Below are positions 1,008 through 26,385 of a DNA stretch of 26,385 nt, piece by piece (position 1 is the stretch's first letter; each line of letters begins with the position of its first letter). Location of the stretch: the IMG/VR virus record IMGVR_UViG_3300033064_002494, positions 1 to 26,385 of that record; one strand, written 5' to 3'. The stretch is from a virus. A model generated the notes under the pieces. That model did no database searches. It was given only the letters and a program-made list of their open reading frames with translations, and had not been told where the DNA came from. The translations under genes were made by a program, and so were the position numbers.

Positions 1008-2293
1008 AAAAGAGTTTGAGACAACAGTGGATAGATATAACTAAACTGTATAGTATCGATAATGACATGATGTCTGAAATTCTGTTCCATGTTTTCATTG
1101 GACAATATTTTAAAAATGTGAAAATTGGGTATGGTGCTGAACATAAAGATCTACGAATAAGTTCTCTTCTTGTATCTCCGTCACGGTCGGGTAAAGGTCA
1201 GGCCATGAAAGTATTTAAAAAAATGTGTGAAATGTGTGGCATCAACGCAGTTAAAAATACGATCATTACAACTGCGGGGTTGGTTGGACAGGTAGATAAC
1301 GAAAAAGTTAAGTTTAACATTCATAATAATCTTAGTGAAGGTGAAGTAAAAGAAGTTCAGCGTAAAGGTAAAATTAAAGTTTTAGAATGGCAAAATCCTG
1401 TTGTTCCCGGAGATTTGTCAACATCGGATGTTATAATCTTCGACGAAGCGTCAGCGTTACTTAAACCGGGAAAGTTCACAGCTGACATGTTAAGTGTTCT
1501 TCAAGAGGCGTTAGATTATCCAGGAACAGTGCGTAAAAAACTTGCAAGTCAGTATCCAATTGAATTTACATCTACATCTAGTATAGTTGGAACAACGTAT
1601 ATCATTGGAGAAATTAAAAGTGTACTTCTATCACAAGGTTTTTTTCAGCGTATATTAGTTTACATTAGACAACTACCATTCAATAAAAAACAAAAAATGA
1701 GACGTCATGTTCTGCAGTTATATCAACGTAAAAACTTGCACGATAAAGATAAAGTTAATAAGATGTTTGAAGATTTTATAGTCGACCTTAATAAACTTGA
1801 CAATTCAGATCGTACAATATATGTTAGTAACGAAGCATTAGACGTTATAGATAAAAATCTCATACAGTTCGAAAAAACGATCGAATCGGATTTCAGTGGA
1901 AACGAACTTGAACTGTTGACTACATTTGTAACTGGTATGCAAGAGTTATACATTAAACTGTCAGCACATTACGCAATCATGCACAATTCTAATATTATTA
2001 AAGCGAATCATGTTAGTGGTTGTAAAAGTATCATCAGAGAATGTATATTCAGTTTAACAACTGAACTGATGGAACTTATTAAAACCGATAAAAAGAACGT
2101 TGTAGTTGACAAGATTCAAAAAATGATACTTGATACTGTACAAAATAATGCGTTTACTAAAGAAGATTTGATACTATACCTTATCAAAAAGGGTGTTCCG
2201 GCACGGAAATTGCGTAACCAAGTAAACATTTTAATACGTCGTAACGAGATCAGATTAAACTCAAAAAAGAAACATCTTGTGACAGTTGGATGA
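1004..2293 (+). CDS. P-loop ATPase, candidate viral replicative helicase
   Basis: The 429-residue protein has a Walker A motif SRSGKGQ (about 60-66), a Walker B VIIFDEAS (about 143-150), a Ser/Thr-rich sensor-like strand TSTSSIVGTT (about 189-198) and GFFQRILVY (about 212-220) with an arginine where phage DUF3987-like and MCM-like ATPases place one. The last 70 or so residues (ILYLIKKGVPARKLRNQVNI) look like a winged helix. In an element with polymerase, primase, clamp and loader but no other helicase visible, a replicative helicase role is the natural inference. MCM-type and DUF3987-type assignments cannot be separated by eye. The start is an ATGA overlap with the preceding gene. Confidence 0.6.
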   Translation: MKKSLRQQWIDITKLYSIDNDMMSEILFHVFIGQYFKNVKIGYGAEHKDLRISSLLVSPSRSGKGQAMKVFKKMCEMCGINAVKNTIITTAGLVGQVDNEKVKFNIHNNLSEGEVKEVQRKGKIKVLEWQNPVVPGDLSTSDVIIFDEASALLKPGKFTADMLSVLQEALDYPGTVRKKLASQYPIEFTSTSSIVGTTYIIGEIKSVLLSQGFFQRILVYIRQLPFNKKQKMRRHVLQLYQRKNLHDKDKVNKMFEDFIVDLNKLDNSDRTIYVSNEALDVIDKNLIQFEKTIESDFSGNELELLTTFVTGMQELYIKLSAHYAIMHNSNIIKANHVSGCKSIIRECIFSLTTELMELIKTDKKNVVVDKIQKMILDTVQNNAFTKEDLILYLIKKGVPARKLRNQVNILIRRNEIRLNSKKKHLVTVG

Positions 2294-2349
2294 ACGCATA
2301 TACTTGAAAATAAAATATGTTTTTATCAACTATTTTCATAAAAGGAAGA

Positions 2350-2379
2350 TTTAAATAGTATAAAGGTTTAAAATAAGCA
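2350..2379 (+). promoter_or_regulatory. Leaderless archaeal promoter for the zinc ribbon/methyltransferase module
   Basis: The TATA box TTTAAATA at 2350-2357 is preceded by purine-rich AGGAAGA, which could serve as a BRE. It lies about 25 bases before the ATG at 2379, the spacing expected for a leaderless archaeal transcript. No SD precedes that ATG, which agrees. The 85-base gap 2294-2378 holds nothing else recognisable. Confidence 0.6.
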
Positions 2380-2594
2380 TGGATGATAAGTATATATTGA
2401 AAATAGAGGTTAATGCTTTCGAGTGTCAGAGGTGTGAGCATATTTGGATACCGAGAGTAAATATGCAAGAGTTAAAGAATAAGGTAAAATCCGAGCCGAT
2501 GATTTGCCCCTCTTGTAAAACTCCTTATTGGCGAACTAAACGAAAGAATAAGAAAAATGATAAAAAGGTGGTTAAGAAAAATGGTAAAAAATAA
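2379..2594 (+). CDS. Zinc-ribbon protein upstream of the methyltransferase
   Basis: This 71-residue protein has two knuckles, ECQRCEHIW (about 15-23) and ICPSCKTPYW (about 42-51). The four cysteines are set as in a zinc ribbon and followed by a Lys/Arg-rich tail. Its ATG sits at the predicted transcription start of a leaderless promoter. Its end overlaps the methyltransferase start by 14 bases, so the two are made together. It may help the methyltransferase or nuclease bind DNA, or regulate them; neither is shown. Arg codons are AGG/AGA-leaning, as in the next two genes. Confidence 0.7.
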   Translation: MDDKYILKIEVNAFECQRCEHIWIPRVNMQELKNKVKSEPMICPSCKTPYWRTKRKNKKNDKKVVKKNGKK

Positions 2595-3777
2595 AAAATA
2601 TAAGGTGTTAGATTTGTTCTCTGGGTGTGGGGGACTAAGTAAAGGATTTGAGATGGCTGGATTCGATATAGTTGCTGGTAATGATATTTTAGAACATGCA
2701 GGAGAAACATATAAGAGAAATCATCCTAACTCCAAATTCTTTCTAGGTGATATAACTGATAATAAAGTTAAGAATGAGTTAATTTCTTATATGAAAAAAA
2801 ATGGTTGTGATGTTATAGTTGGTGGTCCCCCATGTCAAGCATATTCTCTAGCTGGACTAAGAGACCCTAACGACCCAAGAGGAAGATTATTTGAGGAATA
2901 TGTAGAGATAGTGAAACAACTTCAACCAAGGGTATTCGTTATGGAAAATGTTAAAGGTATTCTAACAATCAAACATGATAAAGAGGGTTTAACTAAAAAA
3001 GAAAAAATAGAACTTAATGAGTTAAGAGAATTAGAAAAAGAAAAAGCAGATATTCTTTTACTTAGGAAGCAACATAAAAATAATAATGACAAATATAATT
3101 ATACTAAAAATGACGAAAACCGACTAGAGAGTCTTAAAATAGAAATCAAAAACCTAAAATACCACTTAGGTGATTATGAAGAAAATGTAACAACTCAAAT
3201 TATTAATCGCTTTAATAGGTTGGGTTATGATGTTGAATTTAAACTTTTAAATTCTGCAAATTATGGCGTTCCACAGAGGAGGGAAAGAGTTGTTTTCATT
3301 GGGAAAAAAAAGAATGGACCAATAATTTATCCAAAACCAACTCACTCAGAAAATGGAGAAGGTAAGTTAAAAAAATGGGTTTCTGTTAGGGATGCGATTG
3401 GAGACTTAGAAAATAAGAAAGAAGACATAAATTTTAATCATATATTTACTATGCATAGAAAAGATTTTGAAAAAAAGATAAACCAAACATGCATAGGAAA
3501 AAGTGTTTTTGGAAGTTATTCGGATTCCTTTTTTAGAGCATATCCAGATATTCCATCAAGAACCGTAAAGGAAAACCATGGTGGAGTTTTTGTTCATTAT
3601 AAGAATGATAGAGTTATGACACCAAGAGAACTAGCAAGACTACAAAGTTTTCCAGACAATTTTATTTTTGAAGGAAGTAAGTCCAAACAATTAATCCAAA
3701 TAGGCAATGCAGTCCCTCCGATTTTAGCGAGAGAAGTTGCGAAATCTGTAAAAAGTATGATTCTTAAACAAAAATAA
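2581..3777 (+). CDS. C5-cytosine DNA methyltransferase
   Basis: This enzyme transfers a methyl group from S-adenosylmethionine to carbon 5 of cytosine in DNA. Family motifs are clear, counting from the ATG at 2581: motif I DLFSGCGG (11-18), motif IV with catalytic PPCQ (83-86), motif VI ENV (122-124), motif VIII QRRERV (232-237), and motif X GNAVPP (375-380). A lysine/glutamate-rich, probably coiled-coil insertion lies at about 132-195 between motifs VI and VIII. The target-recognition region between VIII and IX is short. I prefer ATG 2581 over the in-frame ATG 2557 because AGGTGG at 2566-2571 is well spaced for it. The target sequence cannot be read off. AGA-rich Arg codons suggest transfer. 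Confidence 0.95.
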   Translation: MVKNKKYKVLDLFSGCGGLSKGFEMAGFDIVAGNDILEHAGETYKRNHPNSKFFLGDITDNKVKNELISYMKKNGCDVIVGGPPCQAYSLAGLRDPNDPRGRLFEEYVEIVKQLQPRVFVMENVKGILTIKHDKEGLTKKEKIELNELRELEKEKADILLLRKQHKNNNDKYNYTKNDENRLESLKIEIKNLKYHLGDYEENVTTQIINRFNRLGYDVEFKLLNSANYGVPQRRERVVFIGKKKNGPIIYPKPTHSENGEGKLKKWVSVRDAIGDLENKKEDINFNHIFTMHRKDFEKKINQTCIGKSVFGSYSDSFFRAYPDIPSRTVKENHGGVFVHYKNDRVMTPRELARLQSFPDNFIFEGSKSKQLIQIGNAVPPILAREVAKSVKSMILKQK

Positions 3778-3819
3778 AAAAAAGATAATACTTATTAAGC
3801 CAGTTTAACACTCAAATTT

Positions 3820-4530
3820 ATGTCAAATGATAGTGAGATGGATGAAACATTTAAGGTTATTCTAAAATTAATTAAAGATAAAGGTTATATTGATTCTGAT
3901 TTTAAGTTTGAACAGGGAAAAAGAGATATAACTGTTAGGTGTGATAAGGAGATTGATTTTATAATTGAGATGAAGCGAGGTGATGTAAAACTGAATATGC
4001 AACATGTTATACAGGCTATTAGATACGGACAAAAAAGTAAGACAAGAATTGCTATAATAACTAATGGAAAAGATTGGCTTTTTTATGATTCTTTAATTGA
4101 AGCACCCATAAATTTTGGAGCATTTAGGGAAGAGATACCAAATAAAAGTAATTTAGAAGATTGGAAGAATGGGATTATTGACTGGACTTTAAGTTGGGAA
4201 GACCATAAAAAAATAAACAAATTAAAGAGTGTAAAGGACAAAGTTGAATATTTAATAAATCATCCCGAATTATCACCCATTCTCCAAAAAGTTCCAAATA
4301 GAGGAAGTTATGACTGGGCTTTACAATTTGAATATCTTAATGCTTTCTGTGGAATTAATATTCCTCAAGATGTTATTGAAAAGATTGTTAAGTTATCACA
4401 ACCAGATACTAAAAATGATGTTAATCATATTCCTCCGTCTGACTCAATAAGAAGGGTATATTATGATAAATTCAAAACAGACATAGTATCACAAAAAATT
4501 TCTGGCAGAAATAAGAATATTAAAAAGTGA
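3820..4530 (+). CDS. HsdR-N-like PD-(D/E)XK protein, probable cognate restriction nuclease
   Basis: The 236-residue protein contains a type I restriction HsdR N-terminal-like fold. It shows D46-F-I-I-E50-M-K52, fitting the PD-(D/E)XK catalytic signature, followed by QAIRYGQ (about 65-71) and a hydrophobic strand ending TNGKDWLFYD, both typical of HSDR_N domains. The large helicase part of HsdR is absent, so this is a stand-alone nuclease domain with an unrecognised C-terminal half. It sits 42 bases after a C5 methyltransferase with the same codon style, which suggests a type II-like restriction-modification pair. Cleavage activity is inferred. There is no obvious SD, so a leaderless or weakly translated message is possible. 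Confidence 0.7.
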   Translation: MSNDSEMDETFKVILKLIKDKGYIDSDFKFEQGKRDITVRCDKEIDFIIEMKRGDVKLNMQHVIQAIRYGQKSKTRIAIITNGKDWLFYDSLIEAPINFGAFREEIPNKSNLEDWKNGIIDWTLSWEDHKKINKLKSVKDKVEYLINHPELSPILQKVPNRGSYDWALQFEYLNAFCGINIPQDVIEKIVKLSQPDTKNDVNHIPPSDSIRRVYYDKFKTDIVSQKISGRNKNIKK

Positions 4531-4579: not shown

Positions 4580-4620
4580 TATATAAATAAGTTTAATCAT
4601 TAATAATAATAATAATTCGG
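4580..4620 (+). promoter_or_regulatory. TATA promoter and TAA-repeat leader of the SSB operon
   Basis: CTATATAAAT at 4580-4589 is a good archaeal TATA box, predicting a transcript start near 4605-4615. That start lies within a run of TAA triplets ending in TTCGG (4601-4620). The 147-base gap 4531-4677 therefore holds a promoter and a leader of about 65 bases. The leader includes a second ATAATTCGG (4656-4664; the first is at 4612-4620) and the GGAGG SD at 4663-4667. A similar TAA-run ending in TTTCG follows the TATA box at 22951. Confidence 0.6.
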
Positions 4621-4677
4621 GATAAGCAGGTGATGACTATTTTTTATGGTGATAGATAATTCGGAGGAAAAAATAAA

Positions 4678-4908
4678 ATGTCAGATATTAATATGAAACA
4701 GGAAGAGTTGCCAAAGGTAACAAAATTTAGACGGTTAAATGTAACCATAAGCGAAGAAGCTGGAGAAATTCTTGATGATTATATGGAATTTATGAGTAAA
4801 AAGTATGATGAAAAACTTACGCAGGATGCAATATTGACGCTAATCTTAGAAACAGTTATCAAAGAAAAAATTAAAAAACTTAAAACGGAAGAAGGGGAGG
4901 AATTATAA
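4678..4908 (+). CDS. Ribbon-helix-helix-like DNA-binding protein
   Basis: In this 76-residue protein the segment RRLNVTISEEAGEILDDYM (about 18-36) reads as the beta strand and first helix of a ribbon-helix-helix fold. A second helix, LTQDAILTLILETVI, follows. The length is typical of CopG/Arc-like repressors. It is the first gene after a TATA promoter and has a strong SD (GGAGG, 4663-4667), so autoregulation of the SSB operon is plausible but inferred. Two bases separate its stop from the SSB gene. The strand residues facing DNA cannot be assigned with certainty. Confidence 0.65.
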   Translation: MSDINMKQEELPKVTKFRRLNVTISEEAGEILDDYMEFMSKKYDEKLTQDAILTLILETVIKEKIKKLKTEEGEEL

Positions 4909-4910
4909 AA

Positions 4911-5984
4911 ATGTTAACAAAAGAAAAATTCTATGAAATTGTAAATGAAAAAGTTACAATTACAAAAGACGAGTTTGAAAAAATATATAATGAAAAGTAT
5001 AATGAGGTAGTGAGTAAAGGTATAGAAAAATCCAAACGTGAACTGTATACAGTTAGTATGTTACGTGCATATTTTAAACGGCAGTTTAGCAGTCCCGCAT
5101 TAAAATTCATTGGGTACTGTGCTCGTGACATGGGAGTTACGGATTATGGTGCACAAAAAATGTATAATGATTCTATGAAATTGTACGATGAAAATCCAGA
5201 AAGTGCAATTAAGCAAGGTGTGGTAAATGATTCCGGTGTTCCTGTTTATACACGTCCAGACTGGAAAAAAGGACAGGTTATTGATGTTGAACAAGCTAAA
5301 GTTAGAACGTTAATGTTATATTCAAAATCTAATGGCGACGAAGATTATAAAGTTACGTTCATGAACTTGCGTGGAAAAAATCTTACTAAAGATGTTCCGC
5401 TGTTCAAACAAATTGAGTTTCGTGCTAACAAATCAGAAAAGTCAGATAAAACCACGTATTACTTGAATGATAGTGTCACAACAGAGTTCAAAATTATAAA
5501 TGATAAAGAGATAGACGCAGTTAAGTTTGTTGGAAAGTACATGGCAGATAAATGTTGTGAACTTAAAGACTTGAAAGATTATCACGATAAAAATGCAACT
5601 GATTATAATAGATTTGTATGTGTGAAAGGCACGGTTGCACGTGTTAACATTACCGCTGATCATATTAGCAGTAACATCATTGAACTTGACAGTGAAGATT
5701 TGGACTTGAACTTAGACGAGCCAAACTTAGTTACGTGTTGGGTGCCAAAAAGTATTACCATTGACTTTTCTGAACTGACACCAAATGTTTTGATAATTGG
5801 TAGAACTGATGTTAACAAAGACGGAAAACTAACAATTAACGCACAAGGGGTATGGTGTGAAGATGTTTGGAAAGAAACACCAGATCCAGTAGTTGAAAAT
5901 GCAATCAAGACAGAAGAACCAGAAGTTGTTAAAGAAAAAGAACCAGAATCAGAACCAAAAAAAGTTGAAGAGGATGAGTGGTAA
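4911..5984 (+). CDS. OB-fold single-stranded DNA-binding protein
   Basis: The 357-residue protein has a helical N-terminal half and a strand-rich region. Residues about 235-316 (FVCVKGTVARVN through VLIIGRTD to LTINAQGVW) read as an OB fold. It ends in a Glu/Pro/Lys linker and the acidic tip EEDEW, as seen at the C-terminus of SSB proteins, where the tip recruits partners. It lies directly before a Sak4-like ATPase, a family known to work with phage SSBs. The GGGGAGG SD at 4894-4900 supports the ATG at 4911. An RPA-like role is inferred from fold and context; sequence similarity to a named RPA was not apparent. Confidence 0.65.
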   Translation: MLTKEKFYEIVNEKVTITKDEFEKIYNEKYNEVVSKGIEKSKRELYTVSMLRAYFKRQFSSPALKFIGYCARDMGVTDYGAQKMYNDSMKLYDENPESAIKQGVVNDSGVPVYTRPDWKKGQVIDVEQAKVRTLMLYSKSNGDEDYKVTFMNLRGKNLTKDVPLFKQIEFRANKSEKSDKTTYYLNDSVTTEFKIINDKEIDAVKFVGKYMADKCCELKDLKDYHDKNATDYNRFVCVKGTVARVNITADHISSNIIELDSEDLDLNLDEPNLVTCWVPKSITIDFSELTPNVLIIGRTDVNKDGKLTINAQGVWCEDVWKETPDPVVENAIKTEEPEVVKEKEPESEPKKVEEDEW

Positions 5985-6848: not shown

Positions 6849-6906
6849 AAGGTGAGTTAGGGTGTGATGAGTTTAGGTATGCAAAGGTTAGGTATGGTAA
6901 GGTTAT
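6849..6906 (+). repeat. GG-rich period-5 degenerate array I
   Basis: From 6851 to 6905 the sequence splits into eleven five-base units, every one starting with G and seven with GG (GGTGA, GGTGT, GGTAT, GGTTA, GGTAA and so on). There is no perfect unit repeat. The array lies between the Sak4-like gene and the SD of the next gene. Its start (AAGGTGAGTTAG) and end (GGTAAGGTTAT) recur in the array at 26222. GG spaced by three bases is the pattern of a two-tetrad G-quadruplex on this strand. Confidence 0.75.
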
Positions 6907-6934
6907 AATTTAAAAAATAATGGAGGAAAATAAA

Positions 6935-7228
6935 ATGAATGAAGTATTAACAGAAAAAGAAGATGTAACATATATAAAATACTACACACAAAGTTTTTTT
7001 ATACGGTTAGGTGAAGAAAGTTTAGATAAGCTTAAAGAAAAAGTTGATGGAATGACAGACGTAAAACGTAACTTATACATTGACGAGTTTGTAAAAACGC
7101 GAATGCGTAAAGTTCCAGACATGGCGGTAAATGGTGAAGATTATGATAACAGTGCTGTATCGTTAGGTGTTGCATTATTTGGCATACCAGACACTGTACA
7201 GAAAACGTTGGGAGACAAAGAAAAATGA
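6935..7228 (+). CDS. Unknown protein co-transcribed with PCNA
   Basis: The start is set at ATG 6935 (MNEVLTEKED) because GGAGG at 6922-6926 lies eight bases before it, and the earlier in-frame ATG at 6920 would sit across that SD. The 97-residue product has a probable coiled or helical segment (LGEESLDKLKEKVDGM) and no cysteines. Its TGA overlaps the PCNA ATG by four bases, implying coupled translation and perhaps a role linked to the clamp. The message leader would contain the GG-rich array. No family was recognised. Confidence 0.65.
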   Translation: MNEVLTEKEDVTYIKYYTQSFFIRLGEESLDKLKEKVDGMTDVKRNLYIDEFVKTRMRKVPDMAVNGEDYDNSAVSLGVALFGIPDTVQKTLGDKEK

Positions 7229-11567: not shown

Positions 11568-11682
11568 ATGTAGATTGTGCAGAAGACAGCTTAAATCTGA
11601 AAGTAGTATACGAAATGGATTTGGTGCAATTTGTATGAAAAAGATAATGAAAAATAAAAAATTGGAGGATTTTGAAAAATGA
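11551..11682 (+). CDS. DUF6011-like mini zinc-binding protein, 43 residues
   Basis: This short frame begins at ATG 11551 inside the end of the fusion gene and stops in an ATGA overlap with queD. It reads CRLCRRQLKSESSIRNGFGAIC (positions 7-28), split as CRLC, LKSESS, GFGAIC. This matches the CxxCgRpLkdpeS...G.GpvC pattern of small phage proteins of the DUF6011 type, with three cysteines in register. Function of the family is unknown. The overlaps on both sides suggest it is translated with the cassette. Confidence 0.55.
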   Translation: MRKDHKCRLCRRQLKSESSIRNGFGAICMKKIMKNKKLEDFEK

Positions 11683-12044
11683 AAACACTATTATTACACA
11701 CAGAAACAGTAATTGATTCATGTCACCATTTAGAAGGTTATAATGGTAAATGTTCAAATAAACATGGACATTCATGGAAACTTGAAGTTTGGTTTAAAGG
11801 GACACCAATATTAAAAGATGATGTTGGCATATTGGTAGATTTTGGTATTATTAAAGACATTAAAGAAAAGTTGGATCATAAAGATTTAAATGAAGTGTTA
11901 AACTTTAATCCAACTGCAGAAAATTTGTCTGAATGGATATATAATTTTATTAAAAAAAAAGTTGCAAAAGATATTGAAATTAAAATTAGGTTATACGAAA
12001 CTTATGTTGGTAAAAAAACATGGTGTGAATGGGGTGATTGGTAA
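11679..12044 (+). CDS. queD: 6-carboxy-5,6,7,8-tetrahydropterin synthase
   Basis: QueD converts dihydroneopterin triphosphate, the FolE product, to 6-carboxytetrahydropterin, the second step toward preQ0. The 121-residue length is normal. Zinc histidines are visible at 16/17, 29 and 31 (SCHHL, KHGH), the catalytic cysteine of the C-x3-HGH motif at 25, DFG at 54-56, LDHKDLNE (65-72), NPTAENL (77-83) and a closing YET. The Cys spacing supports QueD rather than a pterin-only synthase. It starts in an ATGA overlap and is followed one base later by queE, so queD-queE-folE-queC form one operon. Confidence 0.93.
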   Translation: MKTLLLHTETVIDSCHHLEGYNGKCSNKHGHSWKLEVWFKGTPILKDDVGILVDFGIIKDIKEKLDHKDLNEVLNFNPTAENLSEWIYNFIKKKVAKDIEIKIRLYETYVGKKTWCEWGDW

Positions 12045-12045
12045 A

Positions 12046-12651
12046 ATGAAAACTATTAAAGTAAATGAAGTGTTCCAATCAATTCAGGGAGAAGGAAGAT
12101 ATGCGGGATATCCATGTCTATTCATACGTTTAAGTGGGTGTACACGACAGTGCAGTTTCTGTGATACTGATCATGAAAACTATAATGAGATAACAACAAA
12201 AAAACTTATTAATATTATAGAAAAATCAAAAAAGAACATTATAGTTTTTACTGGAGGTGAACCACTATTACAATTTGACATGATACGAGAAATTCAAAAA
12301 TTTGGACCAGAAAATGTAAAGTATCATCTTGAAACAAACGGAGATTTATTAGATCCAGGACATCTTTTATTTTTTAATTATATTTGTATATCACCTAAAG
12401 ACTTGAAAACAATTAAAAAAATAGATTTAGTATATCCTAAATATATTAGTTTGGATATTAAAGTTGTAACTGATTTAAAACTTAATAAAAAATTAATACC
12501 ATATGCTACAATGCTAATGCCATTGACAACATTTGATACTAAAAAAGATAAAAAGATTAAACAAGACGTATGGAACTATTGTTCTAAAAACAATACTAAA
12601 TTTTGTTTAAGACAACATATTGAAGTTTGGGATAAAAAGAAAGGAGTGTAA
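12046..12651 (+). CDS. queE: 7-carboxy-7-deazaguanine synthase (radical SAM)
   Basis: QueE rearranges 6-carboxytetrahydropterin to 7-carboxy-7-deazaguanine. From ATG 12046 (SD GGTGATT at 12033-12039) the 201-residue protein shows EVFQSIQGEG (8-17), the radical-SAM cluster C32-x3-C36-x2-C39 and TGGEPLLQ (69-76), all standard for QueE. An upstream in-frame ATG at 11962 would only overlap queD in another frame and lacks an SD, so it is not used. The enzyme uses a 4Fe-4S cluster and S-adenosylmethionine in the cytoplasm. Confidence 0.93.
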   Translation: MKTIKVNEVFQSIQGEGRYAGYPCLFIRLSGCTRQCSFCDTDHENYNEITTKKLINIIEKSKKNIIVFTGGEPLLQFDMIREIQKFGPENVKYHLETNGDLLDPGHLLFFNYICISPKDLKTIKKIDLVYPKYISLDIKVVTDLKLNKKLIPYATMLMPLTTFDTKKDKKIKQDVWNYCSKNNTKFCLRQHIEVWDKKKGV

Positions 12652-12654
12652 AAA

Positions 12655-13257
12655 ATGGAAAACGGTAAACAACATGATAAAGAAATGGAAAATAGTATAA
12701 AAATGATGTTAGAACATATAGGAGAAAATCCAAATAGGGACGGTTTGATTGACACTCCACAACGCGTAGTAAAAATGTGGAAAGAAATTTTTAGAGGTTA
12801 CGATCTTCACCAAAAACCAAACATAACTACATTTAATAATGGTAGTGATGGAATAATTTATGACCAGATGATATGTGATGAAGGAACATTTCACAGTCAC
12901 TGTGAACATCATATTGTGCCATTTTTTGGACATTATTACTTTTCGTATATTCCTTCACCCAAAGGTAAATTATTAGGATTAAGTAAAGTTGCACGAGTTG
13001 TAGATTATTATTCGGCAAAATTACAAGTGCAAGAACGGTTAGTTAAAGAAATTGTTGAATGTTTATGGGATGAATTAAGTAAAGATGATATTGAACCGTT
13101 AGGTATGGCATTAGTTATGAAAGCTGAACATTTATGTAAAACTATGCGGGGAGTTAAAAAGAAAGGTTTAATGACATCGTCAATAATGAAAGGTGTATTT
13201 ATGGATAAACCAGAAGTTAGAGCAGAATTTATGAATATGATAAACAGGGGGCAATAA
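12655..13257 (+). CDS. folE: GTP cyclohydrolase I (type IA)
   Basis: FolE opens GTP to dihydroneopterin triphosphate and feeds QueD. The 200-residue protein shows GLIDTPQRVVKMW (about 30-42), the zinc site C83-E-H-H86 in HSHCEHHIVPF, LGLSKVARVVD (about 107-117), LQVQERL (about 123-129), and EHLCKTMRGV (158-167), where C161 is the third zinc ligand. This is the bacterial/eukaryotic type I enzyme; archaea usually use the unrelated MptA type, so the element brings its own entry step. The SD is within AAAGGAGTG just upstream. Confidence 0.95.
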   Translation: MENGKQHDKEMENSIKMMLEHIGENPNRDGLIDTPQRVVKMWKEIFRGYDLHQKPNITTFNNGSDGIIYDQMICDEGTFHSHCEHHIVPFFGHYYFSYIPSPKGKLLGLSKVARVVDYYSAKLQVQERLVKEIVECLWDELSKDDIEPLGMALVMKAEHLCKTMRGVKKKGLMTSSIMKGVFMDKPEVRAEFMNMINRGQ

Positions 13258-13259
13258 AA

Positions 13260-13925
13260 ATGAAAGAAAAAGCTGTAATTATTTTGAGTGGCGGATTAGA
13301 TTCTACTACACTTTTGTATGATATAAAAAAACAAGGTTATGAAACATATGCATTAAGTTTTGATTATAATCAAAAACACAAAAAAGAATTAGAATGTGCA
13401 ACCCAAACATGTGAAAAGTTGAACATACCACATAAAATATTAGATTTAAGTATATTAAATGATATAGCACCTTCAGCTTTAACAAGAGCTGATTGGAAAG
13501 TGCCAGAAGGACATTACGCTGATGAAAACATGAAACAAACAGTTGTGCCTAATAGGAACATGATAATGTTAAGTTTGGCTGCGGCGTATTGTATAGGAAT
13601 CAAAGCCAAAAAATTATTTTATGGGGCACACAGTGGCGATCATGACATATACCCGGATTGTCGTAAAGTGTTTATTAATGCTATACAAACTGTGTTACAG
13701 TTATGTGATTGGAACGAAGTTCATTTAGAAGCACCATACTGGAACATAGATAAAGAAGGTATTATTTTACGTGGAGAATTACTTAAAGTGGATTATTCAA
13801 AAACATGGACATGTTATGTTGGTGAAGAAAAAGCATGTGGTAAATGCGGATCATGCGTAGAAAGGTTAGAAGCATTTGAAAAGGCAAACGTTAAAGATCC
13901 AATAAAATATATAGGAGGTAACTAA
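13260..13925 (+). CDS. queC: 7-cyano-7-deazaguanine (preQ0) synthase
   Basis: QueC uses ATP and ammonia to convert 7-carboxy-7-deazaguanine to preQ0. The 221-residue protein has the PP-loop motif SGGLDST (10-16), FDYNQKHKKEL, VVPNRNMIMLS, YGAHSGDHDIYPDCR, and a C-terminal zinc site CYVGEEKACGKCGSC, the normal QueC pattern. It starts two bases after the folE stop. No QueF (reduction to preQ1) and no GAT-QueC/ArcS gene is seen in the window, so preQ0 is the expected end product. Confidence 0.95.
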   Translation: MKEKAVIILSGGLDSTTLLYDIKKQGYETYALSFDYNQKHKKELECATQTCEKLNIPHKILDLSILNDIAPSALTRADWKVPEGHYADENMKQTVVPNRNMIMLSLAAAYCIGIKAKKLFYGAHSGDHDIYPDCRKVFINAIQTVLQLCDWNEVHLEAPYWNIDKEGIILRGELLKVDYSKTWTCYVGEEKACGKCGSCVERLEAFEKANVKDPIKYIGGN

Positions 13926-13926
13926 A

Positions 13927-14046
13927 ATGAAAATAGTATGTAGTATATGTAAAAAAACAGTTATGGCAAGTAAAGATAGATATAACAAAATAAAAGAAAA
14001 AGGAATGCTTGATAATTACAAGTGTAGAGAATGTAGAAAAAAATGA
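13927..14046 (+). CDS. Mini zinc-finger protein, 39 residues
   Basis: A short frame at ATG 13927, one base after the queC stop, has AGGAGGTAAC (about 13914-13923) as a strong SD. It encodes CSIC (5-8) and CREC (33-36) separated by a basic helix-like stretch, a four-cysteine zinc site. Its TGA overlaps the DUF6884 gene by four bases. It belongs to the preQ0 operon by position. Function is unknown. Confidence 0.55.
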   Translation: MKIVCSICKKTVMASKDRYNKIKEKGMLDNYKCRECRKK

Positions 14047-14471
14047 AAGTAGCATTAATTAGTTGTAGTAAACTAAAAAACAAAGGACTGTATCAAGTTA
14101 AAGATTTATATTGTAGTCCTTTGTTCAAAAAAAGTTTTAGTTATGCAATAAAAAACTTCGACGATGTATATATTTTATCAGCAAAGTATGGTTTATTAAA
14201 TAAAAAAACTGAAATAAGAGATTATAATATGACACTAAATGATATGAAAAAAGAACAAATAATAGAATGGAGTAAGAACATTGCAAACCAAATAAATCAA
14301 ACGTTTAACAAAACTGATAAAATATATATTATTGCCGGAAAAAAATATTATGAAGAACTACTAAAATATTTAGACGTACCATATGAAATCGTATTTGAAA
14401 ATTTATCAATTGGTAAAAAAATGCAGATTTTAAATGAAAATATAAAATATAAAACAATATTAAAATGCTGA
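14043..14471 (+). CDS. DUF6884-family protein
   Basis: The 142-residue protein begins VALISCSKLKNKG (3-15), followed by DLYCSPLFKKS (about 21-31), YILSAKYGLL (about 43-52) and YNMTLNDM. This is the conserved core of DUF6884 proteins: a Cys-Ser-Lys start, the LY-SPLF motif and the ILSAKYGL strand. The family occurs near phage DNA-modification and transglycosylase genes. Here it stands directly between preQ0 synthesis and the DpdA-like gene, which supports a role in base insertion or base tailoring. Its reaction is not known to me. Confidence 0.65.
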   Translation: MKVALISCSKLKNKGLYQVKDLYCSPLFKKSFSYAIKNFDDVYILSAKYGLLNKKTEIRDYNMTLNDMKKEQIIEWSKNIANQINQTFNKTDKIYIIAGKKYYEELLKYLDVPYEIVFENLSIGKKMQILNENIKYKTILKC

Positions 14472-14513
14472 ATATAAATTATATTCCAGTAGCATTAATA
14501 GGGGGCACTTAAC

Positions 14514-15686
14514 ATGAACAATACAAATTATATACCATCAAATTGTCCAAGTCAAATGATGAGAAACTCTGAATATATACCAGTTGCTTCAATGGGGGAA
14601 TTATCAAGAAGTAAATCAGAAGTAACAAATGATTCAATAAACAATGTTAAAAAATTATCATGGTGGGAACCAAACTCATTTTTTAATTATCCAAGTATGT
14701 TAGTTTCTGCATATTACGGAATTAAATATAAAAATAATTTTCGTAAACATTTTAATATACCAGATGATATGTTGATTATTGGAGATTCTGGTGGATTTCA
14801 AAATTTAACTTTAAATGCTAATCTTGATCCTATTGAAGTTTTGCGTTGGCAAGAACAAAATTGTCAAATTGGATTTATTTTTGATATACCAATATCATTT
14901 TGTAAGACTAAAAAAGAAATTAAAGAATGCCAAATAAAAACAGTAGAAAATGCATATATTGCTTTAAAGAAACGAGTAAATAATAAATTAAAATTGTATT
15001 GTGTGTTTCACGGTAAAAACCCTAAAAATTTAAAAGAACATATAGATATATATAATGAACATGGAAATATAAATGATTTTGATGGTTTTGCATTAGGAAG
15101 CATGGTTGCTTTTAAATCGAATTATAATTATGTAACAAAACAACTTGTAACTATTTGTGAAATAAATAAAGAATATAAAAAACCCATACATATTCTTGGT
15201 TTGTCAGGTTTAAAAATAATTCCTATAATATATTATTTATCTAAAAAATATAATCAAATTATAACATATGATAGTTCAAGTTATGGCTGTGGAGCAATCC
15301 GAAAAGAATATTGGTTAGACTATGGAAGATTTAGTATAGAGTTTTCTGATAAAAATCAAACTACAATAAATAAATTACCGTGTGACTGTCCAATTTGTTC
15401 TTTATGCACACCAGAAACCCTTAAAGAATCTGGTTCAATAAGTGGCGGATTAATATCGTTACATAACTTACACCAAACTATGTCATACTGCAATTTAATA
15501 GATATTTTGATTGAAGATGAAAATTTATTTTTTAGTTATTTAAAACAACATGTAGGTTTAAATATTTATGATATTATATCTAAAATTAAAAAGATGTTTG
15601 ATGAAAATGATTTTAGGATAGATAAATATTTTTCATCCGATAACGAAATAAATAACACTACACAATCGAACATATTTGGATTTTAG
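14514..15686 (+). CDS. dpdA: DpdA-like DNA-guanine transglycosylase (Tgt superfamily)
   Basis: The enzyme is expected to exchange guanine in DNA for a 7-deazaguanine base. In 390 residues it keeps the Tgt signatures: DSGGFQ (91-96) with the catalytic Asp91, FDIP (123-126), a GFALGS strand (191-196) like the GGLA/GALG motif, TYDSSSYG (251-258) in the place of the nucleophile loop, and the zinc site C290-x-C292-x2-C295 with His317 in SLHNLH. It lacks the tRNA-binding PUA domain of archaeal Tgt. Location after queDE-folE-queC and DUF6884 makes a DNA substrate much more likely than tRNA. The SD GGGGGC (about 14502-14507) supports the start. Confidence 0.85.
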   Translation: MNNTNYIPSNCPSQMMRNSEYIPVASMGELSRSKSEVTNDSINNVKKLSWWEPNSFFNYPSMLVSAYYGIKYKNNFRKHFNIPDDMLIIGDSGGFQNLTLNANLDPIEVLRWQEQNCQIGFIFDIPISFCKTKKEIKECQIKTVENAYIALKKRVNNKLKLYCVFHGKNPKNLKEHIDIYNEHGNINDFDGFALGSMVAFKSNYNYVTKQLVTICEINKEYKKPIHILGLSGLKIIPIIYYLSKKYNQIITYDSSSYGCGAIRKEYWLDYGRFSIEFSDKNQTTINKLPCDCPICSLCTPETLKESGSISGGLISLHNLHQTMSYCNLIDILIEDENLFFSYLKQHVGLNIYDIISKIKKMFDENDFRIDKYFSSDNEINNTTQSNIFGF

Positions 15687-15696
15687 TTATTATCAA

Positions 15697-15786
15697 ATGA
15701 TAACACTCGAACAAAAAGGGGCAAAGGATATAGTATCAAAAATATTTAAACAAATGTTTAAAAATAAGGAGGAAATTATAAAATGA
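15697..15786 (+). pseudogene. Duplicated 5' fragment of the polB gene, 29-codon chimeric frame
   Basis: Positions 15697-15735 repeat the first 39 bases of the DNA polymerase gene (18131-18169) with 37 matches. The two differences are third-position changes in codons 3 and 4 (ACA/ACT, CTC/CTA), so all 13 encoded residues, MITLEQKGAKDIV, are identical. The frame then runs into unrelated sequence and stops at 15784-15786, overlapping the ATG of the IbrB-like gene. It looks like a relict of polB left when the IbrB/IbrA cassette was inserted. The short product is probably not functional, though its stop couples to ibrB. Confidence 0.8.
15745..15762. repeat. Inverted repeat between polB fragment and ibrB
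   Basis: TTTAAAC at 15745-15751 and GTTTAAA at 15756-15762 form perfect 7-bp arms around a 4-base spacer. The pair sits ten bases after the end of the polB duplication and just before the AAGGAGG SD of the IbrB-like gene. It could be an operator, a TATA-containing promoter element or an insertion-edge relic. Confidence 0.5.
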
Positions 15787-16916
15787 GTTTGAATGAAATA
15801 AATGTATTAATTGAAAAAATAGAAAAAATAGAAAACATTAATGATAAAATAGAATTTATTAATATAGTTAAAAAAAAATTACATAAAATAAGTCCATTTA
15901 AAAATGAACCAGTGGATTGTGTAATATGGGTAAAACAAGAAAAAGTACAAGCCAATGATTATAATCCTAATAAAGTTGCACCGCCAGAAATGGAATTATT
16001 AAAATTAAGTGTTCTTGCAGATGGTTATACTCAACCCATTGTTACATTTCCAGAAGAACATCAAATAACAGTTATTGATGGATTTCATAGAACTAGAGTT
16101 GGTAAAGAAATAAATGAAATAAAAAATAAAGTATATGGATATTTACCAATTGTTCAAATACGAAAATCTCAAATTAATAAAAATGATAGAATCGCATCTA
16201 CAATAAGACATAATCGTGCAAGAGGTAAACACACAATAGATGGTATGAGCGAAATTGTTATTGAATTAAAAAGACGTAATTGGAGTAATAAAAGAATATG
16301 TAAAGAACTTGGTATGGAAGATGATGAAGTTTTAAGATTATGTCAAATAACTGGATTGGCAGAATTATTTAATGATGAAGAATTTAGTAAATCATGGGAC
16401 ATAAAAGATTCAGTGCCAGATTTTGAACCAATAACTGACGACTTTGATGATACAGTAAAAAAAGAATTTGGTTTTAGAACAGTTAATACCAGTGATGAAC
16501 AAAGAATATTTCATAAATATAATAAATGGGAATGTTATAAAGCTGGATTTTATGCTACACATAAAAAAGATATGACACAAGAACAATGTGAAGAAAAATA
16601 TAAAGAATTATTGATCAATGAAAAAGAATTTAGAGATGCATTACAAAATATAATTAATAATTGGAAATATTCATGCGAACATTATTTGACAAACCAAAGT
16701 ATGAATCGCATTGCATATTTAGGACAAGCAGCAGTGTGTTATAAATATGGTATTCCAAGTAAATATAAAAGCGGATTTAATTTATTAACTGAAATAGAAC
16801 AAGACATAGCAAATAATATTGCATTGGAATTTTTAAATAAATGGTTAATGCAAAATGGCAGGGAAAAAGTTGAGTTAAAAGATGCAATGACTACACGACA
16901 ATCAACAATATATTAA
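15783..16916 (+). CDS. IbrB-like ParB-fold protein
   Basis: The 377-residue protein has an N-terminal ParB/Srx-type domain: VQANDYNPNKVAPPEMELL (about 55-73), DGYTQPIVTFP, VIDGFHRTRVG (about 97-107) and RHNRARGKH (142-150), followed by a helix-turn-helix-like EIVIELKRRNWSNKRICKELGM. This is the layout of IbrB proteins, the partners of IbrA PAPS-reductase-like proteins, and IbrA follows here after one base. The C-terminal 170 residues are helical and not recognised. Plasmid segregation is unlikely because there is no ParA. In phages ParB-fold and PP-loop pairs have been suspected in DNA modification; that is inference here. The SD AAGGAGG is strong. Confidence 0.8.
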   Translation: MSLNEINVLIEKIEKIENINDKIEFINIVKKKLHKISPFKNEPVDCVIWVKQEKVQANDYNPNKVAPPEMELLKLSVLADGYTQPIVTFPEEHQITVIDGFHRTRVGKEINEIKNKVYGYLPIVQIRKSQINKNDRIASTIRHNRARGKHTIDGMSEIVIELKRRNWSNKRICKELGMEDDEVLRLCQITGLAELFNDEEFSKSWDIKDSVPDFEPITDDFDDTVKKEFGFRTVNTSDEQRIFHKYNKWECYKAGFYATHKKDMTQEQCEEKYKELLINEKEFRDALQNIINNWKYSCEHYLTNQSMNRIAYLGQAAVCYKYGIPSKYKSGFNLLTEIEQDIANNIALEFLNKWLMQNGREKVELKDAMTTRQSTIY

Positions 16917-16917
16917 A

Positions 16918-18120
16918 ATGCAAGTTAAAAAATATCAAAAACAGAATGTTTTGGATGCCGCAAAAGATAGAATTGGTAAAACATTTGATGATTTTGAAAA
17001 AATATATGTTAGTTTTTCAGGTGGAAAAGATAGTACAATTATGTTACATTTGGTTATGGATGAAGCAATTAAAAGAAAACGAAAAGTTGGAGTTTTGATT
17101 ATAGATTTAGAAGCACAATATCAAGATACAATAAAACACATTTATGAAATTATTAAAATGTATAAAAACAATATGGATTTATATTGGTGTTGTTTACCGT
17201 TATTAATGCGTAATGCTGTAACTAATTTTGAACCAAGATGGGTATGTTGGGATCCAAATAAAAAAGATATTTGGGTTAGACAAAAACCTAAATGCGCAAA
17301 AACCACATATGATTTTGATTTTTTTATTCCAGAAATGGAGTTTGAAGAATTTATGGTATTATTTGGTAAATGGTATGGTAAGGGAAAATTGACAGCAGCA
17401 TTTATTGGAATAAGAGCAGATGAAAGTTTACATAGATATTGTGCAATTGCAACATGGAATAAAAAAGATAAAGCACATAAAAATTATATATGGACAACAA
17501 AAATCATTGATAATGTTTATAATATTTATCCAATATATGATTGGAAAACAGAAGATGATTGGATATATCATGCAAAATTTAAAGATAAACCATATAATGA
17601 AATATACACAAAAATGTATAAAGCAGGAGTTAAATTGAGTCAACAACGATTATGTCAACCATATGGTGATGACCAAAAAAAAGGATTATGGTTATATCAT
17701 ATTTTAGAACCAGATACATGGTGTAAATTAATAGTGCGTGTTAATGGTGTTAATTCCGGCGCATTATATATAAAAGAAAGTGGAAATATGACTGGATATA
17801 ATAAAATTACATTACCAAAAGAACATACTTGGAGAAGTTTTTGTAATTTATTACTAAAAACAATGCCAAAAAAAACCAGAGAACATTATAGTTATAGATT
17901 CAAAAAATTTATTAGTAGTTGGCATGATAGAGGATATCAGGTTATACCAGAAACAGCACCACCAGAATTGGAAGCACAATGTTGGGCTCCATCATGGAGA
18001 AGAATGTGTAAATGTCTTTTAAGAAATGATTATTGGTGTAAAGGATTGGGTCAAGCACAACCAAAAAGTGAAGCATGGTTAAAATTTAAAGAACTTAAAA
18101 AAGCAAAAAAAATAACATAA
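16918..18120 (+). CDS. IbrA-like PAPS-reductase/PP-loop ATPase (DUF3440)
   Basis: In 400 residues it shows the PP-loop SFSGGKDST (32-40), VLIIDLEAQY (about 59-68), and GIRADESLHR (164-173), characteristic of PAPS reductase-like enzymes of the IbrA/DUF3440 group. An aromatic-rich middle with YPIYDWKTEDDWIY follows, then a Cys- and Trp-rich C-terminus (CWAPSWRRMCKCLL). Such enzymes adenylate a substrate through ATP; DndC of the DNA phosphorothioation system is a relative in the same superfamily. The natural substrate of IbrA is not known to me. It is strongly TTA/AGA-leaning compared with polB, and sits inside the bracketed insertion. Confidence 0.8.
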   Translation: MQVKKYQKQNVLDAAKDRIGKTFDDFEKIYVSFSGGKDSTIMLHLVMDEAIKRKRKVGVLIIDLEAQYQDTIKHIYEIIKMYKNNMDLYWCCLPLLMRNAVTNFEPRWVCWDPNKKDIWVRQKPKCAKTTYDFDFFIPEMEFEEFMVLFGKWYGKGKLTAAFIGIRADESLHRYCAIATWNKKDKAHKNYIWTTKIIDNVYNIYPIYDWKTEDDWIYHAKFKDKPYNEIYTKMYKAGVKLSQQRLCQPYGDDQKKGLWLYHILEPDTWCKLIVRVNGVNSGALYIKESGNMTGYNKITLPKEHTWRSFCNLLLKTMPKKTREHYSYRFKKFISSWHDRGYQVIPETAPPELEAQCWAPSWRRMCKCLLRNDYWCKGLGQAQPKSEAWLKFKELKKAKKIT

Positions 18121-22871: not shown

Positions 22872-22910
22872 AAATATATTTTTATGTAACATTGCATTTG
22901 TTAAACTGCT

Positions 22911-22940
22911 GTATATAGCCGAATTACGCCGTATATAGCC
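22911..22940. repeat. Direct repeat GTATATAGCC, candidate operator
   Basis: GTATATAGCC occurs at 22911-22920 and again at 22931-22940, exactly 20 bases apart, about two helical turns. Each copy is preceded by a C/G-rich CTGCT or ACGCC. The pair lies just upstream of the TATA element at 22951, where archaeal repressors or activators bind. Confidence 0.55.
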
Positions 22941-22950
22941 AAACCGAAAG

Positions 22951-23006
22951 GTATATATATATATTCGCCTAAGTTATTATAGAAATAATAATAATAATAA
23001 TTTCGT
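22951..23006 (+). promoter_or_regulatory. TATA promoter and TAA-repeat leader of the small-gene operon
   Basis: GTATATATATATATT at 22951-22965 is a strong TATA-like element. Initiation would fall near 22980-22990, at the start of an AAT/TAA triplet run ending TTTCG (about 22986-23004). The GGAGGTG SD at 23014-23020 then serves the ATG at 23029. The same arrangement of TATA box, TAA run, TTCG and SD is found before 4678. Confidence 0.6.
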
Positions 23007-23028
23007 AAACATTTGGAGGTGTTTTGAA

Positions 23029-25970: not shown

Positions 25971-25979
25971 ACTAAGATG
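25963..25979 (+). repeat. Repeated translation-start cassette, copy 2
   Basis: This is identical over 17 bases to 25690-25706. It forms the SD and ATG of the membrane protein and includes the TAA of the lipoprotein gene. It may reflect local duplication of gene starts. Confidence 0.6.
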
Positions 25980-26177
25980 GTAAAAAAAACAGATAATAAT
26001 GCAACATTTTGGCACATAATTGCTTTAGTTGGATTTTTGTACTACTGGTTGTATTATGGTTTAGCATCACTTGATGCAGCTAATGTAATGCAACAAACGT
26101 ATTATAGTATCCAATGTGCAAAAGGTGTTATGTGGGTTGGAATGTGTGAACTGATTGTAATAGCAACTAAAAAGTAA
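25977..26177 (+). CDS. Small membrane protein with two predicted helices
   Basis: The 66-residue protein has two hydrophobic segments, HIIALVGFLYYWLYYGLA (about 13-30) and a second around GVMWVGMCELIVIA (about 50-63), joined by a polar loop. Short charged ends complete it. The layout fits a class II holin or a membrane accessory protein. It follows the lipoprotein gene after six bases and has the same SD cassette. Function is not established. Confidence 0.65.
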   Translation: MVKKTDNNATFWHIIALVGFLYYWLYYGLASLDAANVMQQTYYSIQCAKGVMWVGMCELIVIATKK

Positions 26178-26221: not shown

Positions 26222-26295
26222 GGTTAGGTCCGGTTTGGTGAGGCTTGGCACGGTTTGGTAAGGTGAGTTAGGTGTGGTCCGGTTGGGTAAGGTTA
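26222..26295 (+). repeat. GG-rich period-5 degenerate array II
   Basis: GG recurs every five bases at 26222, 26227, 26232 and so on through 26262 (nine units), then after a one-base slip again at 26271-26291 (five units). Units are of the type GGTNN or GGNNN, with variable last bases. AAGGTGAGTTA at 26260 and GGTAAGGTTAT at 26286 are shared with array I. The 44 bases before it (26178-26221) hold an SD-like GAGGTGAGG without an ATG behind it. Confidence 0.8.
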
Positions 26296-26320
26296 TTTTA
26301 TAACCTTATTTTTATATTTA
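26289..26320. terminator. Hairpin with T-rich flank, possible terminator or array junction
   Basis: AAGGTTA (26289-26295) and TAACCTT (26301-26307) pair as a 7-bp stem over a five-base loop, followed by an A/T-rich stretch with a T5 run. It could end the small-gene operon. It also marks the break between arrays II and III, so it may instead be a structural element of the arrays. Confidence 0.4.
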
Positions 26321-26326
26321 TAGTTC

Positions 26327-26385
26327 GGTTTGGCACGGTTCGGTAGGATCAGGTATGGTCTGGTCAGGTTGGGTTTGGTAAGGCA
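26327..26385 (+). repeat. GG-rich period-5 degenerate array III (continues past the window)
   Basis: GG occurs at 26327, 26332, 26337, 26342, then (after a 4+6 split) at 26352, 26357, 26362, 26367, 26372, 26377 and 26382. Eleven of twelve GG pairs keep the five-base register to the end of the window, so the array is cut off. GGTTT, GGCAC and GGTAA units also occur in array II. Confidence 0.8.

Follow-up and report, generated by a model that had tools for sequence, protein, structure and literature searches.

GGYNN pentamer arrays in an apparently archaeal virus as very probable genes for VIPR guide RNAs

The viral record IMGVR_UViG_3300033064_002494 (positions 1 to 26,385; this whole stretch of 26,385 nucleotides is called the window below) ends in two arrays of GGYNN pentamers and carries a third about 19 kb away from them. 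We consider it very probable that these arrays are genes for guide RNAs (vrRNAs) of VIPR, a CRISPR-related viral means of recognising rival DNA (bioRxiv 10.64898/2026.04.26.720920). As VIPR was first described by the Doudna group in an April 2026 preprint (PMC13142463, version 2 June 2026), the remark in the initial annotation that it knew of no described class of viral elements with this layout has been overtaken.

In VIPR, a RAMP protein of one domain, Vipr, works with vrRNAs in which 9-16 YNNGG repeats precede a 3' tail, the NN pairs recognising double-stranded DNA with one base skipped between pairs. The complex represses transcription and is directed mostly against competing phages and satellites, and the system is known from bacteriophages and archaeal viruses (PMC13142463). 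In phage SUSP1, which carries a type II system, binding and silencing data indicate that the NN bases specify the targets (PMC13142463).

Pentamer arrays in the window

The features discussed in this work, all on the + strand, are the following.

6851..6905, +: array C, 11 units in strict register, partly degenerate, located by GGY register scoring
25977..26177, +: last gene upstream of arrays A and B, 66 aa, with weak PHROG matches only
26222..26295, +: array A, a putative vrRNA repeat tract of 14 full GGYNN pentamers and one 4-base unit (strict parse)
26287..26309, +: hairpin, candidate 3' tail of array A, from RNA folding
26327..26385, +: array B, 11 full GGYNN units in unbroken register, followed by GGCA at the contig end

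The recurrence of GG every five bases reported for 26222-26385 is real: GG is found at a lag of five bases 21 times in this stretch against 4.4 +/- 2.0 after shuffling, and the highest count in 2000 dinucleotide-shuffled versions of it was 13. Fourteen runs of at least three GGYNN units occur in the window, 13 of them in 26222-26385 and one at 6891, and 200 shuffles of the entire window contained none, so that sequence of equal composition never reproduced the signal. When every position of the window was scored for the GGY register, only three places stood above noise, namely array B (32/33), array A (30/33) and array C (28/33), the rest of the window reaching at most 20/33. The signal therefore lies where the initial annotation had placed it, but as two blocks and not as the single stretch described, and with a third array outside.

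The repeated unit is also not GG followed by three free bases, since all 25 full units of arrays A and B have T or C at position 3 and only the two bases that follow are nearly free; the unit is thus better written GGY-NN. The 4-base unit of array A is GTTA, at which the register slips by one base, and one of the 11 full units of array B reads GAT-CA, leaving the pyrimidine in place. In array C the GG or GGY is lost in four of the 11 units, which are weak, and the register is kept. This array sits among replication genes, between a Sak4/RadA-like gene and the ORF at 6920-7228. Arrays A and C have in common 14 bases, TAAGGTGAGTTAGG, and an end, GGTAAGGTTAT, and because of these shared words the two are probably related to each other; by the same sequence comparison, the 4-base unit of array A seems to have lost one base compared with array C. 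Arrays A and B point in the direction of the predicted genes, the last of which upstream encodes a 66-aa product that is probably membrane-bound.

A hairpin and AT-rich sequence lie between arrays A and B. The hairpin at 26287-26309 has 10 base pairs, including one G-U, and a UUU loop, overlaps the last two units of array A and is followed by a U-rich run at 26309-26323; the RNA fold of 26286-26320 has an energy of -8.8 kcal/mol (z -3.15). It is probably the 3' tail of array A. The fold check found no tail hairpin after array C, and the tail of array B is missing, as the contig ends inside this array. Rfam returned no known RNA family for the window or for seven array loci from other viruses. 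In one of the other viral loci (L036, 960-1360), the tails of two arrays resemble small H-type pseudoknots, whose stems differ in sequence but which share a GAG...CTC arrangement with an A-rich loop.

The same arrays in other viruses

A pattern search of viral contigs recovered at least 120 stretches with six GGTNN units, and in 39 of these loci the arrays are degenerate by our own criteria; GGYNN arrays are thus present in dozens of unrelated viral contigs. In bacterial and archaeal genomes, 118 of the 119 listed matches to a nine-unit pattern failed the criteria for degenerate arrays and one passed, so that degenerate arrays look rare in genome contigs and the ordinary repeats that do exist there look different. 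Many viral loci have a higher-order layout in which blocks of pentamers are split by a constant element, for example GGCA. Two arrays are very long, at 2216-3406 of locus L030, with the constant element GGAATGGTTTAATGAATTTAAT between the pentamer blocks, and at 4599-5060 (- strand) of locus L023, with GGTAAGGCTAATGGGT in that place; no Rfam family matched either, and they may be array variants described for VIPR.

Among named phages, such arrays occur in Gordonia phage UmaThurman and in the Felix O1 group (Felixounavirus, Mooglevirus and Suspvirus), and the named phages of the SUSP1 group have them in the same place. In UmaThurman, the annotated coding gene 40 (L243, 3906-4229) is overlapped almost entirely by a GGYNN array and its annotation probably represents mis-annotated vrRNA genes. 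The parts of the Felix O1 genome paper that were searched give other repeats and do not mention GGYNN arrays, and searches of the literature for pentanucleotide repeats or GGTNN returned nothing useful.

Twelve Ounavirinae phages allowed the conservation of the unit to be followed. The hairpins and tails beside their arrays are almost unchanged, and the arrays themselves differ or are swapped between phages. Over 23 arrays of these phages, the first three positions are G (81%), G (96%) and pyrimidine (98.5%), and positions 4 and 5 are nearly free. The GG is thus kept and the filler varies in these phages, so that GG was not lost as often as the filler, the outcome that the initial annotation had named as a refutation; this is in line with the selection on GG spacing that had been proposed from the sequence, with the difference that the pyrimidine belongs to the selected part. 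This contrast between GGY and NN was seen in the Ounavirinae; the only relative of the window that was found, contig L256, is identical to it.

A RAMP-fold protein beside the arrays

When the proteins encoded near arrays were compared all against all, a single family of about 190 aa dominated; it corresponds to phrog_4652, which has no assigned function and no Pfam family. Among the 120 listed loci, 29 of the 39 with degenerate arrays encode it, compared with 3 of the remaining 81 (Fisher p = 4e-16); the nearest array is a median 15.5 bp away and lies on the same strand in 30 of 32 cases. With E = 4e-48, the family profile matches PDB entry 36pp (36pp_D), the "SUSP1 Vipr protein", and single members match it as well (L036, 1e-9; L013, 8e-14); the phage SUSP1 protein is identical to the 36pp sequence over 195 residues. 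The profile also has a weak match to Cas7-11. The predicted model of the L036 member (pLDDT 91.5) aligns with Csm3/Cas7 RAMPs with Z 12.5 over 165 residues (rmsd 4.3), which predicts a Csm3/Cas7 RAMP fold for the family. The link between arrays and protein was found before the VIPR paper was, and the fold comparison was made afterwards.

In 10 of the 39 degenerate-array loci no Vipr was recognised near the array, and one of these ten records has Vipr elsewhere; divergent Vipr types may be missed by the family profile. A Vipr with 98.5% identity to those of enterobacterial SUSP1-group phages is found in record GU169904.1, which bears the label Staphylococcus phage SA1; the host label or the assembly of this record may be wrong.

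Resemblance to VIPR and proposed mechanism

With 15 units in array A, at least 11 in array B and 11 in array C, GGY fixed and NN free, the arrays of the window fall within the 9-16 units of known vrRNAs. They share with the SUSP1 system the GGY/NN tracts, the tandem arrangement of guides and the location in a virus, together with a probable structured tail after array A, and in the other loci compared here the Vipr family adjoins such arrays. They differ in that the window contig holds no vipr gene, that the tail of array A is a simple hairpin and not a pseudoknot as in the SUSP1 group, and that an isolated, partly degenerate array lies among the replication genes of a virus that looks archaeal.

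By analogy with the published SUSP1 work, each array would be transcribed in the direction of its G-rich strand, giving a vrRNA of about 100 nt in which consecutive GGY-NN pentamers would be followed by a structured 3' tail; for array A this tail would be a simple hairpin. Several copies of the small Cas7/Csm3-like Vipr would then line up on the vrRNA and hold the GGY triplets, and the NN pairs would jointly read a gapped DNA target (xNNxNN...). Such a target would most likely lie in a competing virus or mobile element, the transcription of which would be blocked.

There is a likeness to Class 1 CRISPR-Cas, in which RAMP subunits line an RNA guide made of a variable part and a constant 3' handle and the Cas7/Csm3 backbone on the crRNA breaks base pairing at every sixth position; the arrays differ by splitting the guide information into NN pairs between fixed GGY triplets. 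A tandem-repeat finder detected no CRISPR array in the window, and no cas gene was found among the subset of window proteins searched.

The missing vipr gene and the search for targets

Neither a family search nor a six-frame profile search of the 26,385-base contig detected vipr. The contig ends inside array B, and the gene would probably be located just beyond base 26385. Contig L256, which belongs to the same collection, stops at the same position as the window; a break of the assembly inside the repeat would give such a common end. A continuation past 26385 was sought and only L256 and one distant RadC relative (L257) were obtained, and a BLAST search with the right end found no relative of this virus among named phages. 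None of ten array-bearing records encodes the Hjc or PolB of this virus, and consequently no close relative with vipr was found. As for the accessory gene vap, the last ten proteins of the window have no match to phrog_5926 or phrog_15946, the second-gene families of other array loci; the locus is incomplete.

Using the one-base-skip rule, array B decodes to the predicted target TTNACNTCNAGNCANATNCTNCANTGNTTNAA. The 18-base cores of arrays A and B have six matches in viral contigs, five for A and one for B. The match for B (L258) agrees at 20 of 20 bases in units 1-10 and then at one of four, with the skipped base at codon position 1 and a GC content of 0.50 versus 0.30. All six were judged to be due to chance: the five for array A hardly extend, and none extends or fits well beyond what chance gives. 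No convincing target was thus found by this rule in viral contigs, the array loci compared here or the window, and self-targets in the window score no better than shuffled order.

Alternative explanations

The arrays might be orphan or decaying vrRNA genes without a vipr of their own, either relics of a lost VIPR or guides or decoys that work with Vipr from another virus. This possibility falls under the VIPR reading, so that the two probabilities overlap, and we regard it as quite unlikely. The contig without vipr, the slip in array A and the four units of array C without GG would agree with it, but the contig stops inside an array and elsewhere vipr adjoins the array; moreover, array B, with its perfect register and a pyrimidine in every unit, is therefore either under selection or recent.

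The initial annotation had pointed to two-tetrad G-quadruplexes and had listed replication origin, recombination or packaging site, and transcription boundary as possible roles; such an element could be of DNA or RNA. Regular GG tracts with gaps of three bases are indeed the layout of two-layer quadruplexes, which the arrays could in principle form. Nevertheless, the gap starts with a fixed pyrimidine that is as conserved as the G and that a quadruplex does not need, and conservation in the Ounavirinae follows DGY and not GG alone, the first G being replaced by A or T in 19% of units; a constraint on G tracts only does not describe these arrays. The strong, same-orientation association with an adjacent RAMP-fold gene and the kept register of array C despite its lost GG argue in the same direction. 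We therefore hold a quadruplex element to be very improbable, and none of the roles listed for it found support here.

That the arrays serve as binding sites for a ring-shaped, multimeric RNA-binding protein, through which the virus would control its own genes in the manner of TRAP, is about as improbable. TRAP binds sites of the form GAG-NN repeated 11 times; in trp leader RNAs, these sites combine a triplet and two spacer bases in about 11 repeats, so that spacing and unit number are similar to those of the arrays. The triplet and the protein fold are different, and TRAP serves self-regulation instead of target reading. The partner gene found here encodes a Cas7-like RAMP and not TRAP, and the NN bases specify targets in the published SUSP1 data (PMC13142463).

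A decayed microsatellite or an assembly artefact, to which the end of the contig in a repeat and the identical end of L256 might point, has a negligible probability, given the failure of nearly all listed genome matches to qualify as degenerate arrays, the conservation of GGY next to free NN, and the words shared by arrays A and C at different places. A coding repeat was dropped, as most arrays have stops in all frames, and telomere-like ends, transcription-pause arrays and Chi-like sites were also considered and dropped.

The virus and its host

The larger predicted genes of the window are on one strand. The contig encodes an archaeal-type Holliday junction resolvase, Hjc, above the curated cut-off, a family with matches in 3 of 14 control genomes, all three archaeal. 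There is a weak match to PCNA and, below the cut-off, one to the RFC small subunit, RFC-like proteins occurring in bacterial phages too; among the matches listed, PolB is closest to that of Halorubrum tailed virus 27, with 273 bits, and no other scores above 176. These Hjc, PCNA/RFC and PolB matches make an archaeal host likely.

Three further regions were recorded. The region 11679-18120 carries a seven-deazaguanine cluster (QueD, QueE, FolE, QueC and a TGT/DpdA-like protein) followed by ParB-like and PAPS-reductase/DndC-like genes, and is probably devoted to modification of viral DNA bases. At 2557-4530, a cytosine-5 DNA methyltransferase lies beside an ORF weakly similar to type IIG restriction-modification enzymes. 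The AT-rich gap at 22900-23010, upstream of the last gene block, contains repeated GTATATAGCC words and (AAT)6 and is a possible regulatory or replication region.

Conclusions

VIPR itself is already described, and what distinguishes the present case is the apparently archaeal virus, the simple hairpin tail and the distant, partly degenerate array. These traits could conceivably mark a branch of VIPR in archaeal viruses, with simple hairpin tails and guides scattered in the genome that would be usable without an adjacent vipr and might regulate genes of the virus or of its host and not only those of rivals, although we consider such a branch unlikely. The GGTNN pattern with six units finds VIPR loci directly in raw DNA, also where a fragment lacks the protein gene. 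With this locus, the material on which VIPR can be tested extends to a virus whose replisome is of archaeal type, and further examples from such hosts are useful; once targets are known, the guides could show which elements compete inside uncultured archaea.
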